The position numbers were made by a program, and so were the translations under genes. The notes beneath the pieces were generated by a model that saw only the letters and a program-made list of their open reading frames with translations, had not been told where the DNA came from and ran no database searches. Positions 4,747 through 44,631 of a stretch of 64,000 nt of DNA are shown in pieces; the first letter of the stretch is position 1; every line of letters starts with the position of its first letter. The DNA is from Siphonodentalium dalli (taxonomy: Eukaryota > Mollusca > Scaphopoda > Gadilida > Siphonodentaliidae), in NCBI GenBank assembly GCA_032622095.1, contig CP136061.1, positions 82,000,324-82,064,323 on the forward strand, given 5' to 3'.

Positions 4747-7316
4747 GTGACCTTGGCTAATCCTGCCACCAGACTAAACCGAGATCAGATGATCATTTGT
4801 CGTAGAAAATACAAAGAAACTATGATTTCAAGTAAACGGCGACACAACCATAAAGTGGCTCGTAAAATAGATATGCTCCTGACACATTCGAGTAGCGATT
4901 ACTGGAAGCTCATAAAAGGTCTCGATAAACATGATTCAAACCAACCTGCTCACGATACCGAAACATTTAGTGAGTATTTTCAACAAGAAGATGAAACATT
5001 ATCAACCGGAAGCTCAACTAATAAACCACAACAAGACGAATTATACATCGACGAATGGAGGCATACCGATAACACTGCACTAAATTCTGATATAAAACTT
5101 GACGAGATAAAGCCATTAAGCGTTTGAAAATGAATAAGTCACCAGGTTTTGACACCATATGTAATGAACACATCGCGAAAGCAATGCCACATCTTAGTGA
5201 ACAGTATCTGAATTATTTCAACCTGATATTCAGAACTGGCATTTTGCCCCGCGATTGGACTATACGTTTGATAGGACCCATCTATAAGAGAAAGGGGGAA
5301 CGTCTTGACCCAGCAAATTATCGGAAAATAACACTTCTGAGTTGCATGGCGAAACTTTTCACTATAGTATAATCAGCGAACGGTTGAGTGTATTCCTTGC
5401 CGAGAACCAAATCCAAGGGGAACCCAAAGCTGGTTTCCGAAAAGGATATTCAACCATAGACCATACATTCTCTCTGTACACGTTGGTTCACCTGCTAAAA
5501 TCCTCTAGAAAAAGACTGTACTGTGCATTCATAGAATTCACGCGAGCCTTTGACTCAGTCTGGAGGGTAGGATTATGGGAAAAACTTCTCAGATACAACA
5601 TCAGTGGGAATGTCCTTGACGTCATCAAGGCCCTGTATTCTGACCTTAAGCTTTGTGTTTGCGTCAATGACCAGCAATCAGATTACTTTAGCTGCAACAC
5701 GGGCCTAAAACAGGGAGACAACCTCTCACCGAAACTTTTCGCGCTCTACCTGAACGATCTCGAACGGTACTTACGCAAACAAGATTGCCGCGGAATTGAA
5801 CTGAACCTAGCTGAATCAGACTCAGAACTGTTCACAAAGCTCTGTCTGATAATATATGCTGACGATACTGTGTTGATTGCCCACTCCCGCCAAACTTTGC
5901 AAAACTCACTAAATATCTTTGCGATGTACTGTAGTACTTGGCGCTTAAATATCAATTCTGACAAGACAAAAATATTGATATTTGGCAAAACACAGAAAAG
6001 AGATAATTTATGTCAGTTTAAAATTGCAGATAACAAACTTGAATTAGTAAATAGCTACAAATACCTGGGAACCCTCTTTCATAAAAACGGATCGTTCGCG
6101 AAAGAGAGAAATAGTAGATGTTACAAAGCGAAAAGTGCTTCTCAATAAAATGAGGGCTAATAATTTAAGTGTGTCTACTTAGTAGACGATGGATTTCTCA
6201 TAGATTTCTATTATAGTAGACTCTACTATAATAGAAATCTATGAGAAATCCATCGTACCGATAATGACATATGGAGCAGAAATTTGGTCACATGAAAACT
6301 TTAAATGTTTTGAAAAACTTGAAATTTGGTTTTTTAAATTCATGCTGGGCATTAAATCTTCGACACCGACACAATTTCTTTATGGTGAAACCGGTATTTT
6401 TCCAATAACAGTCAAATTTACTTGACGACTCGCGCGCTGTCATATCGGGGCAGGTTACTAACGATGGAATGTCAACGTTTACCTTTAATACTATATTATA
6501 TTTTATATACTAGGCATTCAAGAAATATTTGCAACAACCCATGGATAATTGATATAAAAGAAACTCTGAATAGATTAGGTATGGGATATATATGGAACGA
6601 CCAATATATTCATAGCCTCAATATTTTTAATGCTTCCATTAAACAAAAACTAGAAGATATCTATATCCAAGAATGGAGGGGCTGTACCTCGACATCTAGT
6701 AAATATGCCTTCTACCGAATAATCAAACAAGATTTCGGCAAAGAAAAGCACCTTAGTAGTGTAGACAATAAACTCGTTCGAGTATTCTGCGAATCAGACC
6801 AAGAAACCACCACCTCCCAATTGAAACTGGATCCTGGAATAAAATAGACTACTCCGAGAGAAAATGTACTTTATGTCTATCAGAACTGGGCGATGAATTT
6901 CATGTCATACTGAAATGTCCAGCTTTACATGATCTCCGACAGAAATATATTCCATCATATTTCTACCGAAATCCAAACACTATTAAATTGAGAGAACTTT
7001 TCAATTCGGGAAAAGGAAGACAAACCACAAATCTGTCCATATTCATCAGAAGGGTTTTGCCGCTATTTAGGCTCTCCTGATGCTTCCACTGACTAATTTT
7101 ACCATATCCCAACATGGGTTGTCGCACCATATATCTTACAACTAATTTATTGCATATATACATGTATATGTACTACACATAACTGACGCATTATTTAAAA
7201 TGTATATGCTAGTACAATACAATCTGCACGCATGCGCACATAATTTATCATATTTATGTATTATGTATTCTCTGTATATCTATATGATGTTGAGAAAATA
7301 AATTGAATTGAATTAA
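4747..7316 (+). pseudogene. LINE reverse transcriptase remnant with C-terminal CCHC-like tail
   Basis: Three overlapping open segments (4747-5127, 5124-5372, 5342-6148) in different frames encode one RT broken by frameshifts. Visible blocks are KMNKSPGFDTI, DPANYRKITLLSCMAKLF, AGFRKGYSTIDH, LKQGDNLSPKLFALYLNDL, the catalytic IIYADDTVLIAHS, and a thumb with KYLGTLFHKNGSF. After a palindromic insertion (6180-6227) the frame resumes as the C-terminal part (6263-6847), then CTLCLSELGDEFHVILKCP (about 6865-6920) and a stop near 7079. The 3' end has a TTGAATTGAATT tail near 7299-7316, typical of LINEs ending in short repeats. The endonuclease is absent, so the copy is 5'-truncated. The clade is uncertain. 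Confidence 0.85.
6186..6256. repeat. Perfect 35-bp-arm palindrome inside the LINE
   Basis: Arms 6186-6220 and 6222-6256 are exact reverse complements with a single base (6221) between them. A smaller perfect palindrome, GTCTACTTAGTAGAC (6173-6187), sits at its left edge. The right arm is genuine LINE coding sequence continuous with 6257 onward. The left arm is its inverted copy, so 6180-6227 is an extra 48 bp in the gene and introduces an in-frame TAG. Confidence 0.93.
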
Positions 7317-19157: not shown

Positions 19158-19235
19158 CCGTCACGGTACGATGCTTTTCGGTCATGAACATCCCATAAAT
19201 GGGTATCTCTGCCGAGCAGCATCGTATAGTGACGG
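19158..19235 (+). other. Inverted repeat enclosing the LINE start codon
   Basis: CCGTCACGGTACGATGCT (19158-19175) pairs with 19218-19235 at 16 of 18 positions. The ATG at 19199 lies in the loop, itself within a small CCCAT/ATGGG stem. In RNA this would present the start codon in a stem-loop. A regulatory role is inference. Confidence 0.7.
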
Positions 19236-22200
19236 GAATTTTTGATTCAAAGAAGAAAGCCCCGTCGCAGAAAATAAAACATGTTACATGCAGCTTTCTC
19301 ATATTGAAATCATTCCGTGGATCAAGTATTAGGCTACCGTTGATCCTGGTTTTAATTACAGCGCTTCTTATAATTTCAGGTTCAGTCCATGTCAATCCGG
19401 GCCCTGTACTAGACCAGACATTAATAACTGAAAACCATCCCGACACTTTGACCATTTTCCAACAAAATATAAGAAGCATTCGGAATAAAATCCACAAAAT
19501 AAATCACATAATATCTGATTATGATATATTATGCTTTACCGAAACTCATCTGGACCCCTCATACCCATGTGAAAATATTCTTATTGAAGGATTCACCCCT
19601 CCTGTCCGAGCCGATCGGGATTGTCATGGTGGTGGTATTTGTGTATACTTCGACGATAACTTATTATACAAGCGCATCGAAAGTCTCGAATTTGACACGT
19701 CTGTAATGTGGTTTGAAATACGCAGTAAACTTACAAAATTTCTCTTATGTCTATCATACCGATCAGAGTACTTCTGTGCCCCAAACTATTGGACCCTCTT
19801 CGAGGAATCCATTTTTGAAGCGTTAGATATTTCCCATAAAGTAATACTACTTGGGGATTTTAATTCAAATTATCTAGATCCCTCGTCCAAACTTAAAAAT
19901 ATCACGGACTATTTTTCACTCAGAAATGTGATTACATCCCCGACCAGAATCACTGCTACATCCGCGACGCTTCTGGACCCCATCATTATAAGCCCTGACA
20001 TTCAAGTGAGGGATGCCGACATCCTTGACTTAGAAATTTCGGACCACTTAGGTGTTTATGCGACCATCTCATTTGATCAACTGTCATCCCCTTCCTTCCA
20101 AAGGAAAATATGGAACTATAATCGCGGCGACTTCCAAAAGGCGGAAATTTTAATAAATGATATAAATTGGGACGATCTCCTCCAGCCTGAAAACGACATT
20201 GATAGGGTAGTGCAAATTTTCTATGATAAATTCTTTGAAATAATGCGAATCACTATACCACAAACTACAGTTACGATAAGATCGAAAGACAAAATTTGGT
20301 TCAATAGCGACATCCGACGTGAGATTCGACGTCGAGATAGATTGCGATCGGTCGCCATCAAGTCTGGCACTGAAAATAATTGGACAAAATACAAAAAATC
20401 GAGGAACAAAGTCAACAACATGAAAAAGTATGCGAAAGCCAAATTTGAAAACAATATCGAAGATAGGGTAAATGACAGTTCTTCGCCCCGTGAATTCTGG
20501 CATCTCATCAACTTTCTTTTGAACAAAAAGAAGATAACAAAAATACCACCTATTTATTCTACGGATGGAGATATTAAAGTCAATGGTGTATCTTTTGTCT
20601 CAAACGATTTGGGAAAAGCCGAGTGCCTGAATACAAAATTCCTCTCAAATTCCACGATTGACCAGAAAGATCACAAACTACCTGATTTCAGTTCACGATG
20701 CAATAAAGAATTATCAGAACTTATATTTTCAGTCGATGATGTCATATCTGCGATCAGATCACTTAAAACGAACAAAGCCTATGGCTATGACGGAGTTAGT
20801 CCAAAAATGCTCCACGGCACGGCTAACGCTATAGCCCACCCTCTTTTCTTAATTTTTAAAAAATCTCTACAAACGGGAAAGTTCCCATCATAGTTGAAGA
20901 AAGCCAATGTGATTCCTATCTTTAAAAATGGAGATTCCGCAGATAGCGCTAATTACCGACCAATTTCCCTTCTACCATGCCTGGGTAAAATTCTTGAAAA
21001 GTTAGTTCTAAAGAGAATCTCGTCCTTTTTCGATGAGAATAAACTCCTATTTCAAAATCAGTCGGGTTTCGTTCCGAAACACAGCACTACATTCCAAATG
21101 ATTGATCTTTATCACCAGCTGTGTCAGACACTCGACAAAGGCTTATACACTTGTTCAGTATTTTGTGATATCTCTAAAGCCTTCGAGAGAGTCTGGCACA
21201 GAGGGTTGATTGCCAAAACTACCGCGTATGGGATAACAGGGTCGCTTTCTAAATGGCTGGAGGACTATCTCACTAACAGGAAGCAAAGGGTCCGAATCAA
21301 TAACACTTATTCTGATTTTGAAACCATCACAGCGGGTGTTCCCCAAGGATAAATCCTTGGGCCTTTCCTATTTTTAATATACATTAATGACATACCAGAT
21401 AACCTCACATCAACTGTTAGAATGTATGCTGATGACACATGTCTCACAGCTTCTCACTTCAATCTTAACATCCTACAATCAGAACTAAACGAGGACCTCA
21501 AAAGGGTCAGTCTATGGGCAGACAACTGGTTAGTTTCGTTCAATCCCAAGAAAACCAAGGCAATATCCTTCTCATTCGTGCCTCAAGATAATTCCCCAGA
21601 TTTAATATTCCAGGACGAAACTATTTCATTTAACGAATCGCATAAGCACCTTGGCCTTGAATTTCAATCAAACTTAAAATGGAACAAACAAATAGAATAC
21701 CCAGCAAACAAAGCTGCCTCTAGACTATCACAATTGAGGAAATTTAAAAACGATCTCGAAAGAAAGACACTCGAAAAATTTTACAATGCGTATATCCTTC
21801 CTATTTTGGATTATGCTGACGTCGTATGGGATTCAGCACCCGATTACTTATTGGAAAAACTCGACCGAATACATAAAGACGCCGCTAGAATCGTAACCGG
21901 CCTAAATCGTTCAGTATCACTTAACAAGTTATGGCTTGAGGTAGGTTGGCGGACACTACACAGGCGTAGGCAACATCGCCATTTGCAAGCAATTTACAGA
22001 ATTATCAATAAAGACGCCCCTTTGTATCTGACATATCTCCTACCGGCCCGCTCCAGAGAACGATCGGATTATAATCTTAGATTTCCAAATAAATTTTATT
22101 CCTATTTCGCTAACACTGAGCATTTTAAACAGTCATTTCTCCCATCTGTTGTTCTGGAATGGAACAAATTACCTGTGTATGTAATCAATGCAACCTCTAT

Positions 22201-22486
22201 TTCCGATTTCAAAGCCAATTTAGGGATTATAGATCCAATAATAAAACCACCCTCTTATTTTTATACAGGAAAAAGGAAAATTAATACAATACACTGTAAA
22301 ATTCGGAATCAGTGTAGTGATCTCCGTTCGGATATGTTTGATAATCACATATCAGATTCGCCTATATGCCCCTGTAACTTAGACATTGAAGACGCCAATC
22401 ACTATTTTCATGTTTGCCCTTTATTTGTAGATCAGAGAATTGACTTTTACCGAAATTTAAGTATTAATGGCTTTCAATCATTATAA
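19199..22486 (+). pseudogene. LINE ORF: N-terminal 2A-like peptide, AP endonuclease, reverse transcriptase
   Basis: One frame spans 1095 codons, broken by TAG at 20891-20893 (probably a former tryptophan) and TAA at 21350-21352 (in PQG-stop-ILG, where the family has serine). Residues 45-60 are hydrophobic and are followed by SVHVNPGP (62-69), a 2A-like NPGP motif. The AP endonuclease has FQQNIRSIRNK, FTETHLD, LLGDFNS and EISDHLG. RT blocks are KTNKAYGYDGVSPKML, ANYRPISLLPCLGKILEKL, QSGFVPKHSTT, FCDISKAFERVWHRGL, the catalytic MYADDTC (about 21422) and the thumb LGLEFQSNLKWN. The C-terminus has a Cys/His cluster, CPCNLDIEDANHYFHVCPLF (about 22368-22427), usual for LINEs. In an active copy the protein would nick the target and copy its own RNA. 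Confidence 0.92.
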
Positions 22487-33171: not shown

Positions 33172-33288
33172 ATATATATATTCCCGGCCTTGTTTGTTCA
33201 ATTATGTATAAGCCGGATTCGTCATCTCCAGTTTAAACCTACATTGATTGCCCAGCCAAACCGGGTCTAAAGGGGCGTTTGTTGTCGG

Positions 33289-33320
33289 TTAAGGACTTTG
33301 CTAACCCATTTTGGACAAAA
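33289..33320 (+). repeat. Left terminal inverted repeat core
   Basis: These 32 bp match the reverse complement of 43603-43634 at 30 positions (TTAAGGACTTTG at the outer side, TTGGACAAAA at the inner side). Weaker similarity extends outwards to about 33184. Inwards, a shared TTTCGAACCCAA word occurs at about 33470 and, inverted, near 43430. Confidence 0.82.
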
Positions 33321-34460
33321 ATAAAGGGTCAAAAAACACATTCAAACTCATTGCAAGCACATGAATTGACTTTCATACAGATCTATGAACATCTTTGACA
33401 TGTTCAAACCATGTGTAACCTCACCTTCCATTAAAAATATGCTTTTATTCAGGGTTAAATTTTGCAAAATTTCGAACCCAACATCTAGAAAATTGCGCAA
33501 CCACTAAAATCATCATGGACACAGAAAGATGTAAAAATATGCCTTCTGTGATGAACAATTGAGATATCTGACGCATTGTCTGTTAATTGGCCGAAATCCC
33601 ATAATGTAAAAATCTGACTTGATTTCTCGGGTACGCGTGCTTTTACAACGAAGTTAGGTAAACAGACCGCGTTAACAACTAATTTCCAAGTGTATTAACA
33701 GCGATCGTGTAAATGCACAAATTTATATATTGACTAAATGAAGCAGAACTCGGGGGCATAACTTACGAATATGTACCAAGAGCGAGATCTTCAATTAGAT
33801 GCTTGAAAATGTAATATTATTTTGATAAAATTGCGATGGCGCAGCACAACCGTGTGATAACGAAAACAATCGCCTCGCTTTTCGAATTACAGGGAACTTG
33901 AAACTCGAATTTAATTATGCAATAGACAGAAGCGTAATTTGACATATTGCCATCATCAACTCACAATAAGAGTACGTAGAAGTAAAATTATATATACTAG
34001 AAACATGGAACTATATTGATTCACACAGTGCAAAATATCGCTATGCGGAGAACTGGTTTCAGGAATTGTCTTAGAAGTTCATGGCCAGAATTTCTTCCAA
34101 TGAGATTCTAAATATACCGTTGGTGCGATTGCAGATGTTTTGCACGTGATATATACATCGAGATATGTAGAAAATACACATCCGATTATTATTCCTGAAC
34201 GCTAATTGATTTAAGAAATAAACGTTTAGTAACTTGTCCGTTACAATTCCAGCACGTGTTTGTATATTGTTGTTGTTGATGTTTCCAGGTAAGAAATAAC
34301 ATTGTTTTATTACTAAAAATGTATTGTTTTTAGTCCTACTTGTTCAGTTGTGGTTTGTTAGGACAGGTATGTTTAGAAAATGAAAAATAATTATATTAGT
34401 AGAATAGAACGAAAATCCAGCGTGTTGGCACGAATTAAAGTCACCCACATCAGTATAGAC
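33321..34460. other. 5' region of the Mutator-YqaJ locus
   Basis: No domain-bearing frame is seen before 34380. The stretch probably holds the promoter and any 5' untranslated exon of the transposase gene. A possible donor, CCAG followed by GTAAGAAA, lies near 34289, but I cannot confirm an exon. Confidence 0.4.
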
Positions 34461-35678
34461 ATGGGGTCCTCTCAAAGATACCAATATACTCGAAAAGGAA
34501 AGTTTGGAAGAAAAAGTGGTCGATTCAAGAAGAATGTAGTTAGATCAAATGTTCCATCGAGCCATAAATCATTTCACAAGTCCCACCATGAAAAAAGTTA
34601 TACTATGACAAACATGAGTCAGGAATCACAGGATGCTCTTAAGTTTCGCATAAGCCGTGATGTTGATGATGATATGCAGGTTGTGACTGACCGGAATGTT
34701 TATCATGTGAAAAAGACTGTTGACAATGACCAGAAGGTTACATTGATTCTTCAGAAGAAGACAGCCATTGCATTAGAAGGTTACCGTGTTATTGACTTAT
34801 CCAATCTCAATGTCCACATAAATAAAATTGCCATACATGTAGCCGAGTGTCCTGCTGCATTGTCCAGAATTGCTTCAAACAAACAACCATACCAGTTAAT
34901 AACAGAATCTAAACGTTATGCCTTGGCCTCAATTCTACTAGCAAGATGCAGTTGTTGTCTGCAGAGCTTTTACTTTCATACAAGTAAAACAACTGATTTC
35001 CAGTCCAAAAAGTTATATGATGTTAATGCCAGGGCAGTTTGGGGGCAAATGGTGACAGGAGGTGGTGCCAGTTGTCTCAATGAGCTTTCCGCAACTTTCG
35101 ACATGCCAGGTATGAGCAGGTCTACATTTACCAAGATAGAGACTGGCATTTGTCATATTTGGGAAGAAAGTATACAGAAATAAATGTTGCAGGCAGGTTG
35201 TGAGGAAAGACAGATTGCAATAGAGAGTGGGAAGTTCTGTGATGGAATACAATCAATTACGGTCATCTGCGATGGAGGTTGGAGTAAGCGATCTCACAAA
35301 CATTCGTACAATGCGGCTGGTGGGGTTGCCACCATCATCGGTGCTGCCACTAAGAAGATTCTCTACATGGGCGTCCGCAACAAAAACGGTTCTATATGTA
35401 TTAAACATGAAAATCTCAACACCAATCCTCCTGATCATGAGTGCTATCGGAATCATACCACCAGCAGCCAATCGATGGAAGCAGACATAATTGTTGAGGG
35501 ATTTCTTGCTGCGGAAAAGATGCACGGTGTTCGGTCCAAATGGATGGTTGGCGATGGCGATAGTTATGTCTTTGCAAGAATTCAAGAAGAGGTTCCAAGA
35601 AGGGGTCCTCTCAAAGATACCAATATACTCGAAAAGGAAAGTTTGGAAGAAAAAGTGGTCGATTCAAGAAGAATGTAG
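34461..35678 (+). pseudogene. Mutator transposase 5' fragment, array unit 1
   Basis: From ATG 34461 (an in-frame ATG also exists at 34380) it encodes MGSSQRYQYTRKGKFGRKSG, a basic N-terminus, then the region shared by all units. TAA at 35181-35183 interrupts it after EESIQK; the frame then resumes as EAGCEERQ-like sequence through VICDGGWSKRS (catalytic D) and WMVGDGDSYVF. At the unit junction the reading frame shifts and ends at 35678, before the CxxH motif and the catalytic glutamate. It cannot make a working transposase. As the first unit, it keeps the natural upstream sequence. Confidence 0.85.
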
Positions 35679-35743
35679 TTAGATCAAATGTTCCATCGAG
35701 CCATAAATCATTTCACAAGTCCCACCATGAAAAAAGTTATACT

Positions 35744-36816
35744 ATGACAAACATGAGTCAGGAATCACAGGATGCTCTTAAGTTTCGCATAAGCCGTGAT
35801 GTTGATGATGATATGCAGGTTGTGACTGACCGGAATGTTTATCATGTGAAAAAGACTGTTGACAATGACCAGAAGGTTACATTGATTCTTCAGAAGAAGA
35901 CAGCCATTGCATTAGAAGGTTACCGTGTTATTGACTTATCCAATCTCAATGTCCACATAAATAAAATTGCCATACATGTAGCCGAGTGTCCTGCTGCATT
36001 GTCCAGAATTGCTTCAAACAAACAACCATACCAGTTAATAACAGAATCTAAACGTTATGCCTTGGCCTCAATTCTACTAGCAAGATGCAGTTGTTGTCTG
36101 CAGAGCTTATACTTTCATACAAGTAAAACAACTGATTTCCAGTCCAAAAAGTTATATGATGTTAATGCCAGGGCAGTTTGGGGGCAAATGGTGACAGGAG
36201 GTGGTGCCAGTTGTCTCAATGAGCTTTCCGCAACTTTCGACATGCCAGGTATGAGCAGGTCTACATTTACCAAGATAGAGACTGGCATTTGTCATATTTG
36301 GGAAGAAAGTATACAGAAATAAATGTTGCAGGCAGGTTGTGAGGAAAGACAGATTGCAATAGAGAGTGGGAAGTTCTGTGATGGAATACAATCAATTACG
36401 GTCATCTGCGATGGAGGTTGGAGTAAGCGATCTCACAAACATTCGTACAATGCGGCTGTGGGGTTGCCACCATCATCGGTGCTGCCACTAAGAAGATTCT
36501 CTACATGGGCGTCCGCAACAAAAACGGTTCTATATGTATTAAACATGAAAATCTCAACACCAATCCTCCTGATCATGAGTGCTATCGGAATCATACCACC
36601 AGCAGCCAATCGATGGAAGCAGACATAATTGTTGAGGGATTTCTTGCTGCGGAAAAGATGCACGGTGTTCGGTCCAAATGGATGGTTGGCGATGGCGATA
36701 GTTATGTCTTTGCAAGAATTCAAGAAGAGGTTCCAAGAAGGGGTCCTCTCAAAGATACCAATATACTCGAAAAGGAAAGTTTGGAAGAAAAAGTGGTCGA
36801 TTCAAGAAGAATGTAG
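35744..36816 (+). pseudogene. Mutator transposase fragment, array unit 2
   Basis: Same content as unit 1 from MTNMSQESQDALKFR onwards. It has the TAA stop at 36320-36322 and, in addition, a one-base deletion near 36456 that breaks the frame between the DGGW motif and IIGAATKKIL. It ends at the out-of-frame unit junction. Clearly non-functional. Confidence 0.88.
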
Positions 36817-36881
36817 TTAGATCAAATGTTCCATCGAGCCATAAATCATTTCACAAGTCCCACCATGAAAAAAGTTATACT

Positions 36882-37955
36882 ATGACAAACATGAGTCAGG
36901 AATCACAGGATGCTCTTAAGTTTCGCATAAGCCGTGATGTTGATGATGATATGCAGGTTGTGACTGACCGGAATGTTTACCATGTGAAAAAGACTGTTGA
37001 CAATGACCAGAAGGTTACATTGATTCTTCAGAAGAAGACAGCCATTGCATTAGAAGGTTACCGTGTTATTGACTTATCCAATCTCAATGTCCACATAAAT
37101 AAAATTGCCATACATGTAGCCGAGTGTCCTGCTGCATTGTCTAGAATTGCTTCAAACAAACAACCATACCAGTTAATAACAGAATCTAAACGTTATGCCT
37201 TGGCCTCAATTCTACTAGCAAGATGCAGTTGTTGTCTGCAGAGCTTTTACTTTCATACAAGTAAAACAACTGATTTCCAGTCCAAAAAGTTATATGATGT
37301 TAATGCCAGGGCAGTTTGGGGGCAAATGGTGACAGGAGGTGGTGCCAGTTGTCTCAATGAGCTTTCCGCAACTTTCGACATGCCAGGTATGAGCAGGTCT
37401 ACATTTACCAAGATAGAGACTGGCATTTGTCATATTTGGGAAGAAAGTATACAGAAATAAATGTTGCAGGCAGGTTGTGAGGAAAGACAGATTGCAATAG
37501 AGAGTGGGAAGTTATGTGATGGAATACAATCAATTACGGTCATCTGCGATGGAGGTTGGAGTAAGCGATCTCACAAACATTCGTACAATGCGGCTGGTGG
37601 GGTTGCCACCATCATCGGTGCTGCCACTAAGAAGATTCTCTACATGGGCGTCCGCAACAAAAACGGTTCTATATGTATTAAACATGAAAATCTCAACACC
37701 AATCCTCCTGATCATGAGTGCTATCGGAATCATACCACCAGCAGCCAATCGATGGAAGCAGACATAATTGTTGAGGGATTTCTTGCTGCGGAAAAGATGC
37801 ACGGTGTTCGGTCCAAATGGATGGTTGGCGATGGCGATAGTTATGTCTTTGCAAGAATTCAAGAAGAGGTTCCAAGAAGGGGTCCTCTCAAAGATACCAA
37901 TATACTCGAAAAGGAAAGTTTGGAAGAAAAAGTGGTCGATTCAAGAAGAATGTAG
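36882..37955 (+). pseudogene. Mutator transposase fragment, array unit 3
   Basis: Same content as unit 1, with the shared TAA stop at 37458-37460 and the same out-of-frame junction ending at 37955. It carries a phenylalanine-to-leucine-type change (AAGTTATGT near 37511) not seen in unit 1. No catalytic glutamate follows in frame. Confidence 0.88.
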
Positions 37956-38020
37956 TTAGATCAAATGTTCCATCGAGCCATAAATCATTTCACAAGTCCC
38001 ACCATGAAAAAAGTTATACT

Positions 38021-39913
38021 ATGACAAACATGAGTCAGGAATCACAGGATGCTCTTAAGTTTCGCATAAGCCGTGATGTTGATGATGATATGCAGGTTGT
38101 GACTGACCGGAATGTTTATCATGTGAAAAAGACTGTTGACAATGACCAGAAGGTTACATTGATTCTTCAGAAGAAGACAGCCATTGCATTAGAAGGTTAC
38201 CGTGTTATTGACTTATCCAATCTCAATGTCCACATAAATAAAATTGCCATACATGTAGCCGAGTGTCCTGCTGCATTGTCCAGAATTGCTTCAAACAAAC
38301 AACCATACCAGTTAATAACAGAATCTAAACGTTATCCCTTGGCCTCAATTCTACTAGCAAGATGCAGTGGCTGTCTGCAGAGCTTTTACTTTCATACAAG
38401 TAAAACAACTGATTTCCAGTCCAAAAAGTTATATGATGTTAATGCCAGGGCAGTTTGGGGGCAAACGATGACAGGAGGTGGTGCCAGTTGTCTCAATGAG
38501 CTTTCCGCAACTTTCGACATGCCAGGTATGAGCAGGTCTACATTTACCAAGATAGAGACTGGTATTGGTCATATTTGGGAAGAAAGTATACAGAAAGAAA
38601 TGTTGCAGGCAGGTTGTGAGGAAAGACAGATTGCAATAGAGAGTGGGAAGTTCTGTGATGGAATACCATCAATTACGGTCATCTGCGATGGAGGTTGGAG
38701 TAAGCGATCTCACAAACATTCGTACAATGCGGATGGTGGGGTTGCCACCATCATCGGTGCTGCCACTAAGAAGATTCTCTACATGGGCGTCCGCAACAAA
38801 AACGGTTCTATATGTATTAAACATGAAAATCTCAACACCAATCCTCCTGATCATGAGTGCTATCGGAATCATACCACCAGCAGCCAATCGATGGAAGCAG
38901 ACATAATTGTTGAGGGATTTCTTGCTCCGGAAAAGATGCACGGTGTTCGGTTCAAATGGATGGTTGGCGATGGCGATAGTTCTGTCTTTGCAAGAATTCA
39001 AGAAGAGGTTCCAATCTGGGGAGTGAAAGTTGTTAAGATTGAATGCGCTAACCACATGACAAAATGTTTACGAACCAGATTAGAGCAGCTAGTAGAAGAC
39101 AATCCCCATTATAAAGGAAAGAATAATCTGACCAAAGTGAAAAGAGTGAAGATCGTATCATACGTCAGATCATCTATCAAATACAGATGTGATAATCCAT
39201 CCACTGATTCTGCATCTACAATCTTAATGCTAAAAAATGACATCATGAATTCAGCTTCTCATGTTTTCGGGATCCATGATAAGTGCTCGGACTTATGCAA
39301 GGCAAAGGCAAAATAACAAAAAGAGATTGGTTCAACTCAAGGTAACAAATCTAACAATGAAGAGCAGGAAAAAAAAGCAGACAGCGTTAGTGATACGGAA
39401 CCGGTTGAACAGGAAATTCTGAAGGAGATGAAAGATTATTGGACAGAATGGATGTCACCAACAGAACTGACTGAGGTGACATCCCTTGATGCCGATGCTG
39501 TTGATATAGATCCATCACTTCATAATGATATCCGCTTCCATCTGAATCGTCTAGCTGAAAAGGCCGACAAACTTATTGGAAATGCCACAACCAACCTTGC
39601 AGAAAGCTGGATGAACATGCGAATGAAATTTGATGGTGGAAAGGTAAGAAATCGATGTAACAGAGGCTCGTGGAATTTCCGCTGCTATGGCGCACTGCTA
39701 CGAAATAACATGGGACCAAATTGGGCACCGATTGCATGGGGACAGGCGACAGGTACTCGAGCTTGTAGAGCCTTCAAAGATGAGTACTCTAAGAGGAGAA
39801 AGATGATTAAACAGGCAGCCGTGTACCAGAAGAAGAAAGATTATAAAGTGAAGCGGTGGAAAAGAAAGATAAGAGCACTGAAAACCAACATGACGAAGAA
39901 GGCTAGACTGTAA
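38021..39913 (+). pseudogene. Mutator-type DDE transposase, most complete copy
   Basis: One frame runs 38021-39913 with a single TAA at 39314-39316. It lacks the stop carried by units 1-3 (GAA here). Visible features: a Cys pair ARCSGC (about 38357-38374), VICDGGWSKRSHKHSYNADG (first catalytic D at 38687), WMVGDGDSSVF (second D at 38969 or 38975), a CANH motif (CxxH, 39044-39055), and ATTNLAESWMN, whose glutamate (39602-39604) fits the MULE third acidic residue. Then come GSWNFRCYGALLRNNMGPNW and a basic C-terminus. In an active element it would cut at the inverted ends. Downstream frameshifts (about 39914-40040) separate it from the YqaJ part, which probably once belonged to the same protein. 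Confidence 0.85.
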
Positions 39914-40040
39914 TATGGTCCTGATCCATCCAAGTGTCCAATGATTTAACACCAGAACAACTTCAAGACAAGATCGAATGGTACTACGAGAAAGAAATCA
40001 ATGTGTCTGAAAAAAATTAAAGCATGTCGAAGAACAAACA

Positions 40041-40723
40041 GTGGAACAGTCATTGTCCGGTTATTGGCTAGCTGAGAGAAAGAAGAGAATAACAGCATCC
40101 AATTTTTCAAGTATCGTCAAGCGTCGGACTACCATCCCTGTGAAGAAACTTGTAGAAAAGCTCTTGTACTCAACATTTGCAGGAACAAGACTTACTAGAC
40201 GAGGGCTTAGACTTGAAAAATTTGCCATTACGGAATACATCCAATTTAAGAAGGACAACAGTGAAGATGTAACGGTTAAGAAATTGGGACTGTTCATTGA
40301 TATGGCACATCCTTTCCTTGGTGCCAGCGTTGATGGTCATGTGACAAGTAGCACACATGGTGAAGGCGTGATTGAAATTAAACATGTTCTTCTGAACAAG
40401 GGTTTCATGTTCCAAGAAGCTGCTTTGAAATCAAAGGTATTCTGTTTACAATATGTCAATGGAGAACTCTCATTGAAGAAAACACATGCTTTCTACCATC
40501 AAATTCAAGGTCAACTCAATGTTTTGAATCTTGAAGTGGCTGATATTGTTGTGCGGCGGGTGGATCCCATCAACTTCTCGTTGAAAGAATCAATCGAGAC
40601 CCCATCTTGTGGAAAGACACTATGCTACCAAAACTTGAAGCATTCTACCATAAGGCTATACTTCCTGAGTTGGCAGCTCCATGTAATGGAAAGAAGCCTG
40701 GCATCCGGGAGCCAGGAAATTGG
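40041..40723 (+). pseudogene. YqaJ-type exonuclease domain
   Basis: The frame encodes SGYWLAERKKRITASNFSSI, then GLRLEKFA (glutamate 59 counted from the ATG at 40041), LGASVDGH (aspartate 98), IEIK (glutamate 112, lysine 114) and YHQIQGQL. This is the E...D...ExK...Q nuclease core of the YqaJ / lambda-exonuclease superfamily, which resects DNA ends. Proline of the usual GASPDG is valine here. The true frame shifts near 40590 into ILWKDTMLPKLEAFYHKAIL and reaches a GT donor at 40724 after a complete TGG codon. Upstream, a frameshift near 40015 joins it to KKLKHVEEQT..., so it was probably continuous with the transposase. Confidence 0.85.
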
Positions 40724-41866
40724 GTAATTAATTCACTTTACTCCTAGCAACCAATCAAATACTAACACAAATGCATTAAATTTGTAGCATGTTGCATGCA
40801 TAAACTATTTTCAGTTATGTGAACTAGTATCATGATGAATGTTTGAACCAAGTAAAGTGTCAATAACCACGAACATACCGGTATTACATGAGCTGCTGCA
40901 ACAATGTTACAATATAGTTTCACTACATATATATTGATTTTTCTTGCCATCTTTAATTAATTGTGTGTATTATGCCTTTCCATCACAAGACGAAAATCCA
41001 TATTATCATACATACATGTACATACATACATGTAGAATAAATGGTTTTCACACTTTTAAAATTAATTTATTCAATGTGTAAAGGTAAAAACCCATGTATT
41101 TTATGTATACCACACTTCAGACTTCTACACCGTGTATTGTAATAGTATCACTACCAGGGGTGCCCAGCTTGCTTACATGTAGGTAATGAATGAGCAAATT
41201 ATTAGTGTTCCTTCAAGTTATTTCAATCAATGATTGGTCACCTGCAGTCAATATCACCTGTTGCCTGAAACTCTCTACATGTAGATACATAACATGTAAC
41301 CTCTATCTTTTAAGTTGTGACTAAACGCTCTTTAGTGTTCATTATCACTGCCTTCATATATGTTATTATTATTTATTTGTTTCACTTTTAGTCAACTGAG
41401 GTAAAATGCACCTATTTACTAATATTCTCCTGGTTAGTTGACCCCTGTGGAACAATGTTCCTACATACCGTCTTCATCTGATAATGAACACTCATTATTG
41501 CTCATGTGCAGTACATGATCATTCTCATTTAGTGTCAACTGCAGCTAACTAACTGTTTGGTACTGGTGGGTCAATTTACCGGTACCTGTGTTTACCAATA
41601 TTTTGTACCAAAGGCAGCCGTTTACATTATATTAATCAGGAGTGCCTCTTCAAATCAACTGAGGTCAAAATCACATATCCCATGACACAGTCCTGGTCAA
41701 TTTACCCCTGTGTAAAAATTCCCAGGTCTGATGGTCTATTCGTTGCCCATAGTCACGCAGACAAACAAACAACAAAACAACCAAATGAAGTTTTATTAGT
41801 ATAGATCAATGTACATGCTGTTACAATTCGATTTGATATACATACTTATCTTCACTTTTCTTACAG
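40724..41866 (+). other. Probable intron containing satellite-like repeats
   Basis: It runs from GGGTAATT (donor at 40724) to CTTTTCTTACAG (acceptor ending 41866). Both boundaries are phase 0. Within it, 41320-41715 holds degenerate units of the CGCTCTTTATT / CAACTGAGGTCAA satellite family also found at 45.4-45.9 and 48.1-48.6 kb. Confidence 0.55.
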
Positions 41867-42288
41867 TACCCTGTAACGGCAGTCAGCTTGGCAAAAAAAA
41901 CTCCAGCTCCAAAGAAGTTCAGACCTCCTGCAGGACACCCAAAGACCAAAGTCAAAGATCCCCTGGTAAATGTAACAGAGCACAAGAAAGCCCTATCATC
42001 AAACACAGCAAAATCTGCTAAAGCCATATCACCCAGGCAAAAGGTATCAAAAGTAAAGAGACACGGACAAAAAAGACACAGGTTATTGCCAGCACCACAA
42101 GTGAAAGTGCAACACCCTCTGACAATGTGTTGTAAGACTCTGACTTCACTGAAGAAAGATCCTTATTATTCCTGCACAAGCATATTCTTCATGAATGGGA
42201 GGATGAGTATGGCAGAACAAAATGGTACAGTGGGATCGTTAGTGATGTCTTAGATGGTGAAGATGGAGATGAGGATGCTGCATATGAC
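41867..42288 (+). pseudogene. Exon for a basic linker and acidic C-terminal domain
   Basis: After the acceptor the phase-0 frame gives a Lys/Pro-rich linker (AKKTPAPKKFRPPAGHPKTK). A frameshift near 42060 and a TAA at about 42133 break it. The final frame reads FTEERSLLFLHKHILHEWED, then EYGRTKWYSGIVSDVLDGED and GDEDAAYD, ending at a GAC/GTAAGT donor (42289). Together with the next exon this resembles a small beta-barrel, Tudor- or chromo-like fold (W-Y-x-G-x-V). That fold is a guess from pattern only. Confidence 0.55.
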
Positions 42289-42825
42289 GTAAGTTGTCTG
42301 TATATTGTTGAAAGTGTTGAAATAACAGTGGTGGTGTTGTGGTGTAGTATGTCACCTATTTTCTGCCCGATACTGCGACTCAGAGTGTATCATAAATATA
42401 TATTTTTAATCAATGTTTCAGAAGTATACAGGTAGTATTTTTAGATATAAATTTGTCGACTACATGCATGATTATTATTGTTATGAAGTTCAGAATTCAT
42501 CTAGTAATTTCAGGTGCCTGATAATGGTGTCAGCACAATTATTAATTAAATATAAAATGCCCAAACCTGGCCCAACAATCATTATTTGGTAATGAGACAT
42601 AGAGTGAAATTGCTATCACTACTATTAATTTAAGCCTAAATCTCCAATCATCACAGAATTCGGCCATAACAATTATTAGGCATCTGAGAGTAAGAATATT
42701 GCATTTTCATTTTTTTGTTGGTGGCAATATATCGCTGCAAAGTGTGAGAAAATGTGCTGCATGTATTACACAGTGTTTCCTCATTTAACATGTGCTTCAA
42801 CGATCGGTGATTCTCTAACTTTCAG
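42289..42825 (+). other. Intron between the two C-terminal exons
   Basis: The donor is GTAAGT at 42289-42294, a perfect consensus. The acceptor CTAACTTTCAG ends at 42825, with a branch-point-like CTAAC just upstream. Both flanking exons are in phase 0, giving AYD joined to VMYDETGEND. Confidence 0.8.
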
Positions 42826-42930
42826 GTGATGTACGATGAAACTGGTGAAAATGACAAATATGAAGTAGACTACAGTGAGTTGGTGGATGACTATCTAGCT
42901 GGATCACTGAAGTTTGTTGATGATTTGTGA
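42826..42930 (+). pseudogene. Last exon of the Mutator-YqaJ gene
   Basis: It encodes VMYDETGENDKYEVDYSELV followed by DDYLAGSLKFVDDL and a TGA stop at 42928-42930. It is strongly acidic and continues the fold of the preceding exon (YDxTGENDxYEVDYxEL). The clean splice junction and open frame indicate a real exon. The whole gene is called a pseudogene only because of the upstream stops and frameshifts. Confidence 0.7.
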
Positions 42931-43602
42931 ATTTGCCTGCACCTGCTCCCCTACTACATGTAACATACCATTCATACCGTGAGTATTCATATGCTACGCT
43001 TTACTTGTGGTTTCTATTATTTGTTGGTGGATTGATAAAATATTTCTTTGTATGGGCAAAGTAATATCTTGCTTGTCTGCAACATTGTGATGATTTGGCA
43101 AGCATGGGGTTAACATGATGACAAATACATATTAATAATGCTAAAATGATCTTTTAGTTAGCAGAACTTGCAAATGTCCTCTGTTTGTATTAATTGTTTT
43201 GTGTTCTGAATGTCATGACTTTTTATACAATTGGGCCTCCATACCTTTGCTGTTGAAATAGTTCCAGCATTTGATATCTATTTAAAAATGCATACAAGTG
43301 TTACAACTTTCAATTTTAGTCAAGTTTAATCCTACGTTCTACATGTCTCAATTGTTCATCGTTCTTGGATATGTAATTCAACTTTTCCCTTACACTGTTT
43401 TCAGGTTTGATGTTGGACTTGGGTGATTTTGGGTTCGAAAACTTCACTTAAAATAATTGTGTTCAAAGACAACATTTTGATAATTTGGGTAAGATATTCC
43501 ATTAAATAACATCTATTTAATATCACAGAACATATTAGAACTGAGTTTGGGTTATATGGTAGTTGAAATCAGCCTGAATCACTTCATAATCGACCTATGA
43601 AA
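42931..43602. other. 3' region of the Mutator-YqaJ locus
   Basis: AT-rich sequence without a gene, from the last exon to the right inverted terminus. It presumably holds the 3' untranslated region. TTTTCGAACCCAA-type sequence near 43428-43442, inverted, mirrors the left subterminal region. Confidence 0.45.
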
Positions 43603-43709
43603 TTTTGTCCAAATTGGGTTAACAAAGTCCTTAATGACTAGCGGATTCGTTGAGATGAGCATGCAATCAATCTTCTACCCAGTTACCAGGCGGACAACAA
43701 ACAAGCCGG
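43603..43709 (-). repeat. Right terminal inverted repeat
   Basis: 43603-43634 is the reverse complement of 33289-33320 with two mismatches. Going outwards, GCAATCAAT (43663-43671) and AACAAACAAGCCGG (to 43709) mirror the left end. The last word is also the start of the adjoining 44-bp satellite. Confidence 0.8.
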
Positions 43710-44140
43710 AACAATGATGATTGACATGCCTTAAATTAGCGCGAACAAGCCGGTACAATGATGATTGACATGCCCTAAATTAACACGAACAAGCCGGTAC
43801 AATGATTATTGACATGCCCTAAATTAGCGTGAACAAGCCGGTACAATGATGATTGACATGCCCTAAATTAACACGAACAAGCCGGTACACTGATTACTGA
43901 CATGCCCTAAATTAGCGCGAACAAGCCGGTACAATGATGATTGACATGCCCTAAATTAACACGAACAAGCCGGTACAATGATTATTGACATGCCCTAAAT
44001 TAGCGCGAACAAGCCGGTACAATGATGATTGACATGCCCTAAATTAACACGAACAAGCCGGTACAATGATTATTGACATGCCCTAAATTAGCGCGAACAA
44101 GCCGGTACAATGATTATTGACATGCCCTAAATTAGCGCCA
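43701..44140 (+). repeat. 44-bp satellite, ten units with 88-bp higher-order period
   Basis: Units begin at ACAAGCCGG at 43701 and every 44 bp to 44097, with a degenerate start at 44141. Two types alternate: one with GATGATTGAC and TTAACAC, the other with GATTATTGAC (or GATTACTGAC) and TTAGCGC. This gives an 88-bp dimer for units 2-9. There are no non-repeat spacers. The array starts within the right inverted terminus of the Mutator-YqaJ locus. Confidence 0.96.
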
Positions 44141-44631
44141 ACAAGCTACCACTATCACATTATAGATACGCCGTCAATCGATATTGGAGTTATGTTACCA
44201 ACATCAAAGTAATTGCAATATGGGCATTACTTTTCTTTGTGAATTAAGTATGAATATTCATGTTACCTTTACCTTTCATTAAACTTTCACCTTATATTCA
44301 CTTTTGGTCGATTATCTTTTGCCATTCTTCGGCATGCACCCATGGCCGACAGGTAGCAGCAGAGATATAAAACAAACAATGATCGCAATTGACTCAAAAT
44401 AATTTATCCCCACATTATTGACTATTACATGAATTAGTGCTTCCTGCTTATACACATCCAATCAAAACATGCTTGTTGTTGTAATTATAAATTTCAGCTG
44501 TGGATAGAACGCGGCGGTTCGTATTCACTCCTTTCACGAGGATTGTGCGTTGCGGTGGCCCTGTGTATAGTGGCTCACCGGCGGGAAAACAGTGTTCACC
44601 ATCGCACCCGGTCAGAGTAAGTTTTTTGTTC
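44141..44631. other. No gene recognised
   Basis: Single-copy-looking sequence between the satellite and the segmental duplication. 44490-44620 is slightly GC-richer and open in one frame on each strand, with no domain. Confidence 0.45.

Follow-up and report, generated by a model that had tools for sequence, protein, structure and literature searches.

The window, a stretch of 64,000 nucleotides from the scaphopod Siphonodentalium dalli (contig CP136061.1), contains an element of 10,338 bp (33293-43630, + strand) that is very probably an autonomous KolobokE DNA transposon in decayed form, a placement based on the published features of that group. In KolobokE, a DDE transposase with a CxxH motif and two zinc fingers is fused to a lambda-exonuclease/YqaJ nuclease (Kojima and Bao, 2022; PMC9587614). 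The original prediction of a DNA transposon joining a DDE/CxxH transposase to a nuclease of this type was borne out, and the elements on which it was built are present: the motifs DGGW, GDGDS, CANH (CxxH) and NLAESWMN, a nuclease of the form E...SVDG...EIK...Q that follows downstream in the same orientation, a pair of C-terminal exons and inverted repeats at the ends. Its assignment to the Mutator-like elements (MULEs) is not supported, the element having a 4-bp TTAA duplication, GG...CC ends and both KolobokE zinc fingers, and the limits that it gave, 33184 and 43709, fall outside the element. The features are collected in Table 1.

Table 1. Features of the KolobokE-like element, in positions of the window.
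Feature	Position	Strand	Basis or remark
Left TTAA target-site duplication	33289..33292	.	sequence; single 4-bp segment at paralogous empty sites
Left terminal inverted repeat, GGACTTTG...	33293..33320	+	arm comparison
Exon 1, transposase and nuclease, interrupted in the window copy	34461..40723	+	GT at 40724; sister-copy frames
Three additional 1,139-bp tandem units, repeating part of exon 1	34463..37878	+	one unit only in L083 and L084
PF20700 transposase core, in the fourth tandem unit	38291..39289	+	profile match
Catalytic D codons	38687-38689, 38975-38977	+	alignment, sequence
CxxH (CANH)	39044-39055	+	alignment, sequence
Third catalytic residue, E of NLAESWMN	39602..39604	+	alignment, sequence
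Lambda-exonuclease/YqaJ nuclease domain; E, D, E-x-K and Q retained	40065..40523	+	profile, alignment, fold of relative
Intron 1, GT...AG	40724..41866	+	predicted from sequence
Exon 2, encoding a linker and the N-terminal portion of the predicted Tudor-like domain; frame broken in the window copy	41867..42289	+	sequence
Intron 2, GT...AG	42290..42825	+	predicted from sequence
Exon 3, second part of the predicted Tudor-like domain and stop	42826..42930	+	sequence; fold of relative's domain
Right terminal inverted repeat, ...CAAAGTCC	43603..43630	-	arm comparison
Right TTAA target-site duplication	43631..43634	.	sequence; paralogous empty sites

Termini and target site

The limits of the element are given by its terminal inverted repeats (TIRs) and by the same end bases in two sister copies, L083 and L084, of 6,936 and 6,815 bp. 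The termini are inverted repeats of 28 bp bracketed by TTAA target duplications, and the arms including these (33289-33320 and 43603-43634) are 94% complementary. TTAA flanks both ends of the window copy, L083 and L084, as well as two members of a related family. The GG...CC ends of the first three recur in those members; the copies read thus have, in both families, the 5'-RR...YY-3' termini and the 4-bp TTAA duplication that characterize Kolobok.

Empty and filled sites were compared, as proposed at the outset. In a search with the joined flanks the junction was spanned in 38 of 43 matches, and all six paralogous empty sites that were fetched lack the insert and carry one 4-bp segment at the target, which confirms the 4-bp duplication. 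The target position in these six sites reads TCAA, TGAG, TCGT or TCAG, not TTAA, so that the TTAA state before insertion is something we only infer. The element likely moved by cut-and-paste at TTAA.

Transposase and nuclease

Exon 1, whose ATG at 34461 was picked by analogy with the N termini of relatives, matches the transposase profile PF20700 at 272.7 bits (cut-off 26.5) and the YqaJ profile PF09588 at 49.3 bits (cut-off 22); the nuclease part is also matched by the Viral_alk_exo profile. In an alignment of the window copy with 40 relatives (41 rows), the first D, the last D of GDGD, the CxxH and the E are present in 41/41 rows each, giving the Kolobok arrangement of a DDE triad with C/DxxH between the second D and the E, and the same holds for the E, D, E, K and Q of the nuclease. 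The CCHC finger after the first D, a KolobokE feature, is retained in 40 or 41 of the 41 rows at each position; it is complete in all 40 aligned relatives, and L083 and L084 have all four residues, while in the window copy Gly replaces the first Cys. The HHCC finger after CxxH is conserved in 38/39 to 40/40 of the rows with a letter, and its third position, located as in Kolobok between C/DxxH and E, is Cys in 38 of 39.

The fusion with a lambda-exonuclease/YqaJ nuclease that distinguishes KolobokE is indicated by the profiles, the alignment, the fold and the frames of the sister copies, each of which has one uninterrupted stop-to-stop frame (984 and 990 aa) encoding the transposase and then the nuclease, with C-terminal exons after it. 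The fold of a relative's nuclease matches LHK-Exo (3syy; TM 0.74 by target length) and lambda exonuclease, and that of its transposase part matches, more weakly, the ISCth4 transposase (E 6.6e-4; TM 0.37 by target length). Among the matches listed, 53 of 120 database relatives have the transposase-nuclease fusion.

It is very unlikely that the element is a MULE that acquired a YqaJ nuclease. The profile search proposed in the original prediction did match both domains, and Pfam names PF20700 'Mutator-like transposase'; however, no profile of another transposase type matched at E up to 1 in the Pfam scan, the duplication is 4 bp instead of the 8-11 bp of MULEs (PMC6446971), and the window transposase has between CxxH and E a zinc finger that PMC9587614 describes as absent from MuDR, P and hAT. 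Still less probable is a relative of ISL2EU, which likewise has a YqaJ protein alongside its DDE transposase and termini usually starting with GG, but in which, according to PMC4482050, YqaJ is a separate ORF and the target is A|AT|T, whereas here we find TTAA and, in the sister copies, one fused frame.

The family in the genome and the damage to the window copy

The search of the 2.23-Gb genome for other copies with the same termini, also suggested beforehand, revealed a multi-copy family. The 27-nt left terminus, with up to 3 mismatches allowed, occurs 13+14 times against 0+0 for the reversed pattern, and the 12-mer TTAAGGACTTTG 717+703 times against 304+300; the termini of the element are not due to chance. 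Seven facing TIR pairs lie at different places of the genome, while, as a point against the placement, a repeat of about 106 bp is common to the left flanks of L083 and L084, at non-corresponding places. In the related family two copies of 7.6 kb are identical except at 2 bases, indicating that such elements moved recently. For the SGNH-like ORF of this second family, a single distant relative came up at E up to 1e-3. The protein of the family shows at most 49% identity among the best 120 of 145 matches, a search that did not suggest a recent horizontal transfer.

Similar termini are also found on short elements, apparently nonautonomous relatives. The original prediction had regarded termini without the gene as evidence against a transposon; they do occur, yet on short elements of the kind expected for one. 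Counting TTAA at the 20 short elements that could be paired gives a biased figure, because TTAA formed part of the search pattern. At 20 loci where just one perfect end was listed, the second end could be identified, allowing at most 3 errors, in four cases, and beyond it lay TTAA in two, TTTA in one and TCGA in one; two of the 20 loci, L045 and L048, mark where older copies of the large element end.

The window copy is damaged. A unit of 1139 bp is present in four tandem copies (34463-39017), the fourth of which (37879-39017) continues into the remainder of the gene; the joined parts meet in the same way at all three junctions, with GAA in between, and each of the three extra copies contains an identical in-frame TAA. 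In comparison with L083, the frame of exon 1 breaks near 39925, 40014 and 40568. The lesions comprise tandem copies, in-frame stops, frameshifts and the lost zinc-finger cysteine. The TTAA duplications, the four tandem units and the stops and frameshifts had not been part of the original prediction.

A transposon gene domesticated by the host, as the two uninterrupted sister frames could suggest, is extremely improbable: the gene is multi-copy, not single-copy, and on this point the host-gene reading fails; moreover, facing TIR pairs lie at seven places, each of the three copies read is bordered by TTAA on either side, an empty site exists and the window copy is broken. An equally poor case can be made for an endogenous viral gene adjoining or fused to the transposase, in the sense of the YqaJ expansions of one clam genome interpreted as viral genes (PMC7826175): the YqaJ and Viral_alk_exo profiles both match, and the nuclease domain may ultimately be of viral or phage origin, but in the sister copies and relatives it forms one open frame with the transposase, inside the TIRs, and at 84 of the 97 transposase loci of the genome it lies downstream within 8 kb on the same strand (opposite strand, 0/97). 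On the opposing side, among the matches listed no nuclease accompanies 13 of the 97 transposase loci, and no transposase accompanies 63 of the 150 matches to the nuclease. The fused frame, its position inside the TIRs and the co-location make the nuclease a part of the transposon now, whatever its origin.

C-terminal domain, proposed mechanism and known systems

The last two exons are predicted to encode a Tudor-like domain, resembling Spindlin in its modelled fold and present in 12 of 172 relatives. The model of a relative's domain, built on a 7-row alignment with block pLDDT of 85-96 across the domain, has the Tudor-like beta-barrel; Foldseek ranks 1-46 are Spindlin chains (many of them repeats of one protein), the best match has E 8.2e-4 at 17% identity, and 2 of the 726 matches reach E 0.001. 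Fold comparison was the only informative search for this domain: the two C-terminal exons gave no Pfam match at E up to 1, a PDB profile search with the domain alone gave no convincing match, and the Spin/Ssty profile PF02513 matched two of seven members below its cut-off (best E 0.021; 10 bits against 25 for the first member). The main text of PMC9587614 mentions no Tudor-like or chromatin-reader domain, and this module of KolobokE is apparently undescribed in the literature searched.

From what is known of the family, the transposase would bind the termini, and its DDE/RNase H-fold core would excise the element and insert it at TTAA. The lambda-exonuclease-type nuclease could resect the 5' strands at the donor break, or trim the ends, and so steer repair to homologous gap filling, which would restore the donor copy and sometimes leave internally deleted copies; we regard this role as plausible, though not as the favoured outcome. 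With similar reserve, the Spindlin-like Tudor domain might keep the complex on modified histones and bias the place of insertion. More tentative, and on balance unlikely, is the whole picture of KolobokE as a three-part single-chain machine made of a transposase, a lambda-type 5'-3' exonuclease and a Spindlin-like histone reader, in which the reader domain would direct the complex to selected chromatin, the exonuclease would compel homologous repair at the donor gap and so convert cut-and-paste into net copying, and the four-fold tandem would be a possible scar of such repair.

The placement in KolobokE corrects a likely mis-filing, both under the 'Mutator' name in Pfam and in the clam genome paper that took YqaJ expansions as viral genes, and KolobokE would gain a chromatin-reader-like module. 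Two questions become testable in this genome through the near-identical copies of the related family and the many short elements with similar termini: for what reason an end-resecting nuclease would be part of a transposase, and whether histone marks guide a DNA transposon to its landing place.

Among known systems, the Spin/Ssty Tudor proteins are similar in the predicted fold of the C-terminal domain and differ in sequence, the domain of the window type matching none above the curated cut-off. ISL2EU, of the PHIS group, shares the DDE transposase and the GG termini, and most of its autonomous members have the YqaJ exonuclease ORF; in addition to ORF arrangement and target, its PHIS-type transposase sets it apart (PMC4482050). 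KolobokP and KolobokD are likewise Kolobok elements with an accessory nuclease, but of the His-Me finger or DEDDh type, and KolobokP has long terminal direct repeats (PMC9587614). Closest is KolobokE itself, which has the same transposase-nuclease fusion and both zinc fingers; the window element differs from its main-text description in the predicted Tudor-like C terminus, and the window copy also in the internal four-fold tandem.

Bounds and target site of the element

The element has terminal inverted repeats, as the original prediction held, and its ends are inverted copies of GGACTTTG...; the bounds then proposed, 33184..43709, give way to those in the table. Including the TTAA present at both sides, the inverted arms measure 32 nt with 94% complementarity.

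Features of the element in the window
Feature	Position	Description	Basis
Element	33293-43630	10,338 bp, TIR-bounded	
Open frame, transposase	37841-39313	within exon 1	
Open frame, nuclease	40011-40724	within exon 1	
Exon 2	41867-42289	preceded by canonical GT-AG intron	read from sequence
Exon 3	42826-42930	preceded by canonical GT-AG intron	read from sequence

The insertion lies within a dispersed repeat (flanks 33214-33288 and 43635-43719) that matches at least 38 further places in the genome searched (2.23 Gb, 9 contigs; the window is C1:82000324-82064323). When the flanks 33214-33292 and 43635-43719 were fused around a single TTAA and searched for, 43 places were listed: 38 cross the junction, 2 correspond to the flanks in the window itself and the other 3 are pieces of 27 bp. 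Empty and filled sites could be compared, as had been suggested: an insert at the junction is found in none of the six sites fetched out of the 38 (one has a 1-base gap adjoining), and this establishes the 4-bp target duplication. The four target bases in these six sites are TCAA, TGAG, TCGT or TCAG, and not TTAA; the repeat copy hit probably carried TTAA before insertion.

Next to the element, at 43700-44146, a 44-bp unit is repeated in tandem (10.2 copies). Elsewhere in the window, RT-like frames at 19199-22486 and 5309-6148 appear to be pieces of non-LTR retrotransposons, the first interrupted by stops.

A fused gene for transposase and nuclease, with a predicted Tudor-like module

HMM profiles confirmed the predicted pairing of a DDE transposase with a YqaJ nuclease: the first open frame matches PF20700 ('Mutator-like transposase') at 272.7 bits and the second YqaJ PF09588 at 49.3 bits and Viral_alk_exo at 26 bits. 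A protein search found 248 database relatives (best identity 47% among the fused relatives listed), and 53 of the 120 listed carry both PF20700 and PF09588, as counted from precomputed domain annotation. When 40 of these 53 were aligned with the window (41 rows), the first D, the last D of GDGD, the C and H of CxxH and the E of the transposase, together with E, D, E-x-K and Q of the nuclease, were found in every row, and the other D of GDGD in 40/41. All 40 relatives have an intact CCHC finger downstream of the first D, in which the window copy is without the first Cys; conservation of the HHCC finger, located between CxxH and E, ranges from 38/39 to 40/40 of the rows having a letter. A structure predicted for the relative P0007 (mean pLDDT 79) resembles LHK-Exo, lambda exonuclease and mimivirus R354, presumably in its nuclease part, with a TM of 0.74 by target length for LHK-Exo. 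Its match to the ISCth4 transposase is weaker (E 6.6e-4; TM, again by target length, 0.37).

Downstream, a profile built from the C termini of four relatives matches the product of 42139-42288 and 42826-42927 (E 5e-21, three-sequence search). The domain was detected in 12 of the 172 relatives gathered, five of the 12 being seeds of the profile used, and is only partial in the relatives P0067 and P0126. Many relatives without it may be frames stopping at the end of exon 1; the GIREP motif, which ends this exon, occurs in 54 proteins, of which 12 continue for at least 70 aa, 11 of them with the domain. For the corresponding domain of a second, related family, modeled over 144 aa from a 7-row alignment (block pLDDT 85-96 over the domain), Spindlin chains occupy ranks 1-46 (best E 8.2e-4, 17% identity), many rows being one protein, and only 2 of 726 fold matches are at E 0.001 or better. 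Pfam matches of 7 members were all sub-threshold (Spin-Ssty 0.021, Tudor_5 0.032, Agenet 0.043 and three weaker names), and a profile search of PDB sequences did not find Spindlin. We call the domain Tudor-like, with a predicted fold most like Spindlin. It may already be recorded in Repbase. Kolobok and a tudor domain are both mentioned in PMC6128900, whose excerpt concerns piRNA clusters, and in PMC11673608.

The window copy is damaged. As assembled, exon 1 contains a 1,139-bp unit four times over: units 1-3 differ at 2-5 positions among themselves and at 16-19 from unit 4, which differs from the sister copies at 27-29. All three unit junctions have the same sequence, GAA separating the parts that are joined, which suggests a single joining event and later amplification. 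Units 1-3 have stops in common, a further stop lies at 39314, the frame is broken near 39925, 40014 and 40568 relative to the sister copy L083, and exon 2 also has a frame break.

Copies, a second family and short elements

Other copies with the same termini, for which the original prediction suggested a search, do occur: the 27-nt terminus (at most 3 mismatches) is found 27 times in the genome vs 0 in the control, giving seven facing pairs 6.8-10.3 kb apart. Six enclose transposase matches, and the pair at C2:189985444-189994064 has none among those listed. The transposase query gave at least 109 matches, merged into 97 loci, and the nuclease query at least 150; among the matches listed, a nuclease lies downstream within 8 kb on the same strand at 84/97 transposase loci and on the opposite strand at 0/97, and 63/150 nuclease matches are without a listed transposase. 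The aligned pieces of the sister copies L083 (6,936 bp) and L084 (6,815 bp) show about 95-97% identity to the window. Both copies are flanked by TTAA, and their stop-to-stop frames, 984 and 990 aa long, run from transposase through nuclease. Uninterrupted frames do not make them functional, as in L084 exon 1 ends without the splice-donor sequence. A repeat about 106 bp long is common to the left flanks of the two, at non-corresponding positions; comparison gave no match between their right flanks, nor between the left flanks of L083 and the window. L049 and L051, partly read, are older copies (about 86-93% identity by piece).

The second family, whose transposase shows 56% identity, gave six genome matches of near-identical score. 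Two copies fetched share 7,579 bp with 2 mismatches, a length that includes the TTAA on either side and 4 bp matching by chance, so the family has moved recently; the element itself, 7,567 bp, runs from GGCCTATGGG to CCCATAGGCC. Upstream of the transposase gene, its loci L085 and L086 contain an additional 238-aa ORF (Pfam Lipase_GDSL E 0.015, under the cut-off) with SDSKG, GTCD and DGVHP, which we take to be SGNH/GDSL-hydrolase-like motifs. It has one distant relative, P0122 (28% identity), and a literature search did not find Kolobok and SGNH together.

Twenty short loci on C1 between perfect 12-mers that face each other, picked from the first 100 places listed, span 238-2,806 bp (14 of them 873-961 bp) and have the terminal GGACTTTG, in most cases GGACTTTGCTAACCCA, in common with the window element, to which blastn (1e-5) gave no further match. 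Their 12-nt flanks differ, and since TTAA was within the search pattern, these loci alone do not prove duplication. For another 20 loci, where one perfect end was listed, the opposite end could be recognised in 4 cases, and the bases after it were TTAA (2), TTTA (1) or TCGA (1). As termini and target are shared, the short elements were probably mobilised by the large one. Long inverted arms are apparently present in the elements of about 950 bp; blastn coverage against family members, when summed, is greater than the element's own length in many of the twenty.

At C7:18.8-24.0 Mb lies a cluster of 13 YqaJ-like matches (29-34% identity to the window nuclease) with open frames of 380-484 aa, 9/13 of 484. 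The one such locus read that is without a listed transposase (L095:1111-2565) encodes a different protein, with a SWIM-like C-x-C...C-x-H motif ahead of the YqaJ nuclease. The accessory proteins of ISL2EU have a SWIM-like motif ahead of the nuclease.

Proposed mechanism and comparison with known systems

Beyond the marks of mobility, the fused gene of the sister copies and the conserved active-site residues, all directly observed, we propose that the transposase would cut and paste at TTAA and the nuclease would resect the donor ends. Such resection could favour homologous gap repair, with net copy gain and internally deleted copies, and the Tudor-like domain, by putative histone binding, might tether the complex to chromatin.

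A literature search did not find Kolobok and YqaJ together. The MULE identity originally predicted is rejected, the 4-bp target duplication being at odds with the MULE feature in the excerpt of PMC6446971, and ISL2EU, as described in the excerpt of PMC4482050, differs in both target and gene layout. Each KolobokE feature tested from the excerpt of PMC9587614 is present in the element or its sister copies. In the excerpt of PMC7826175, a YqaJ expansion in a clam is listed among endogenous viral elements; transposons such as this one would be a simpler source of this expansion than viral elements.
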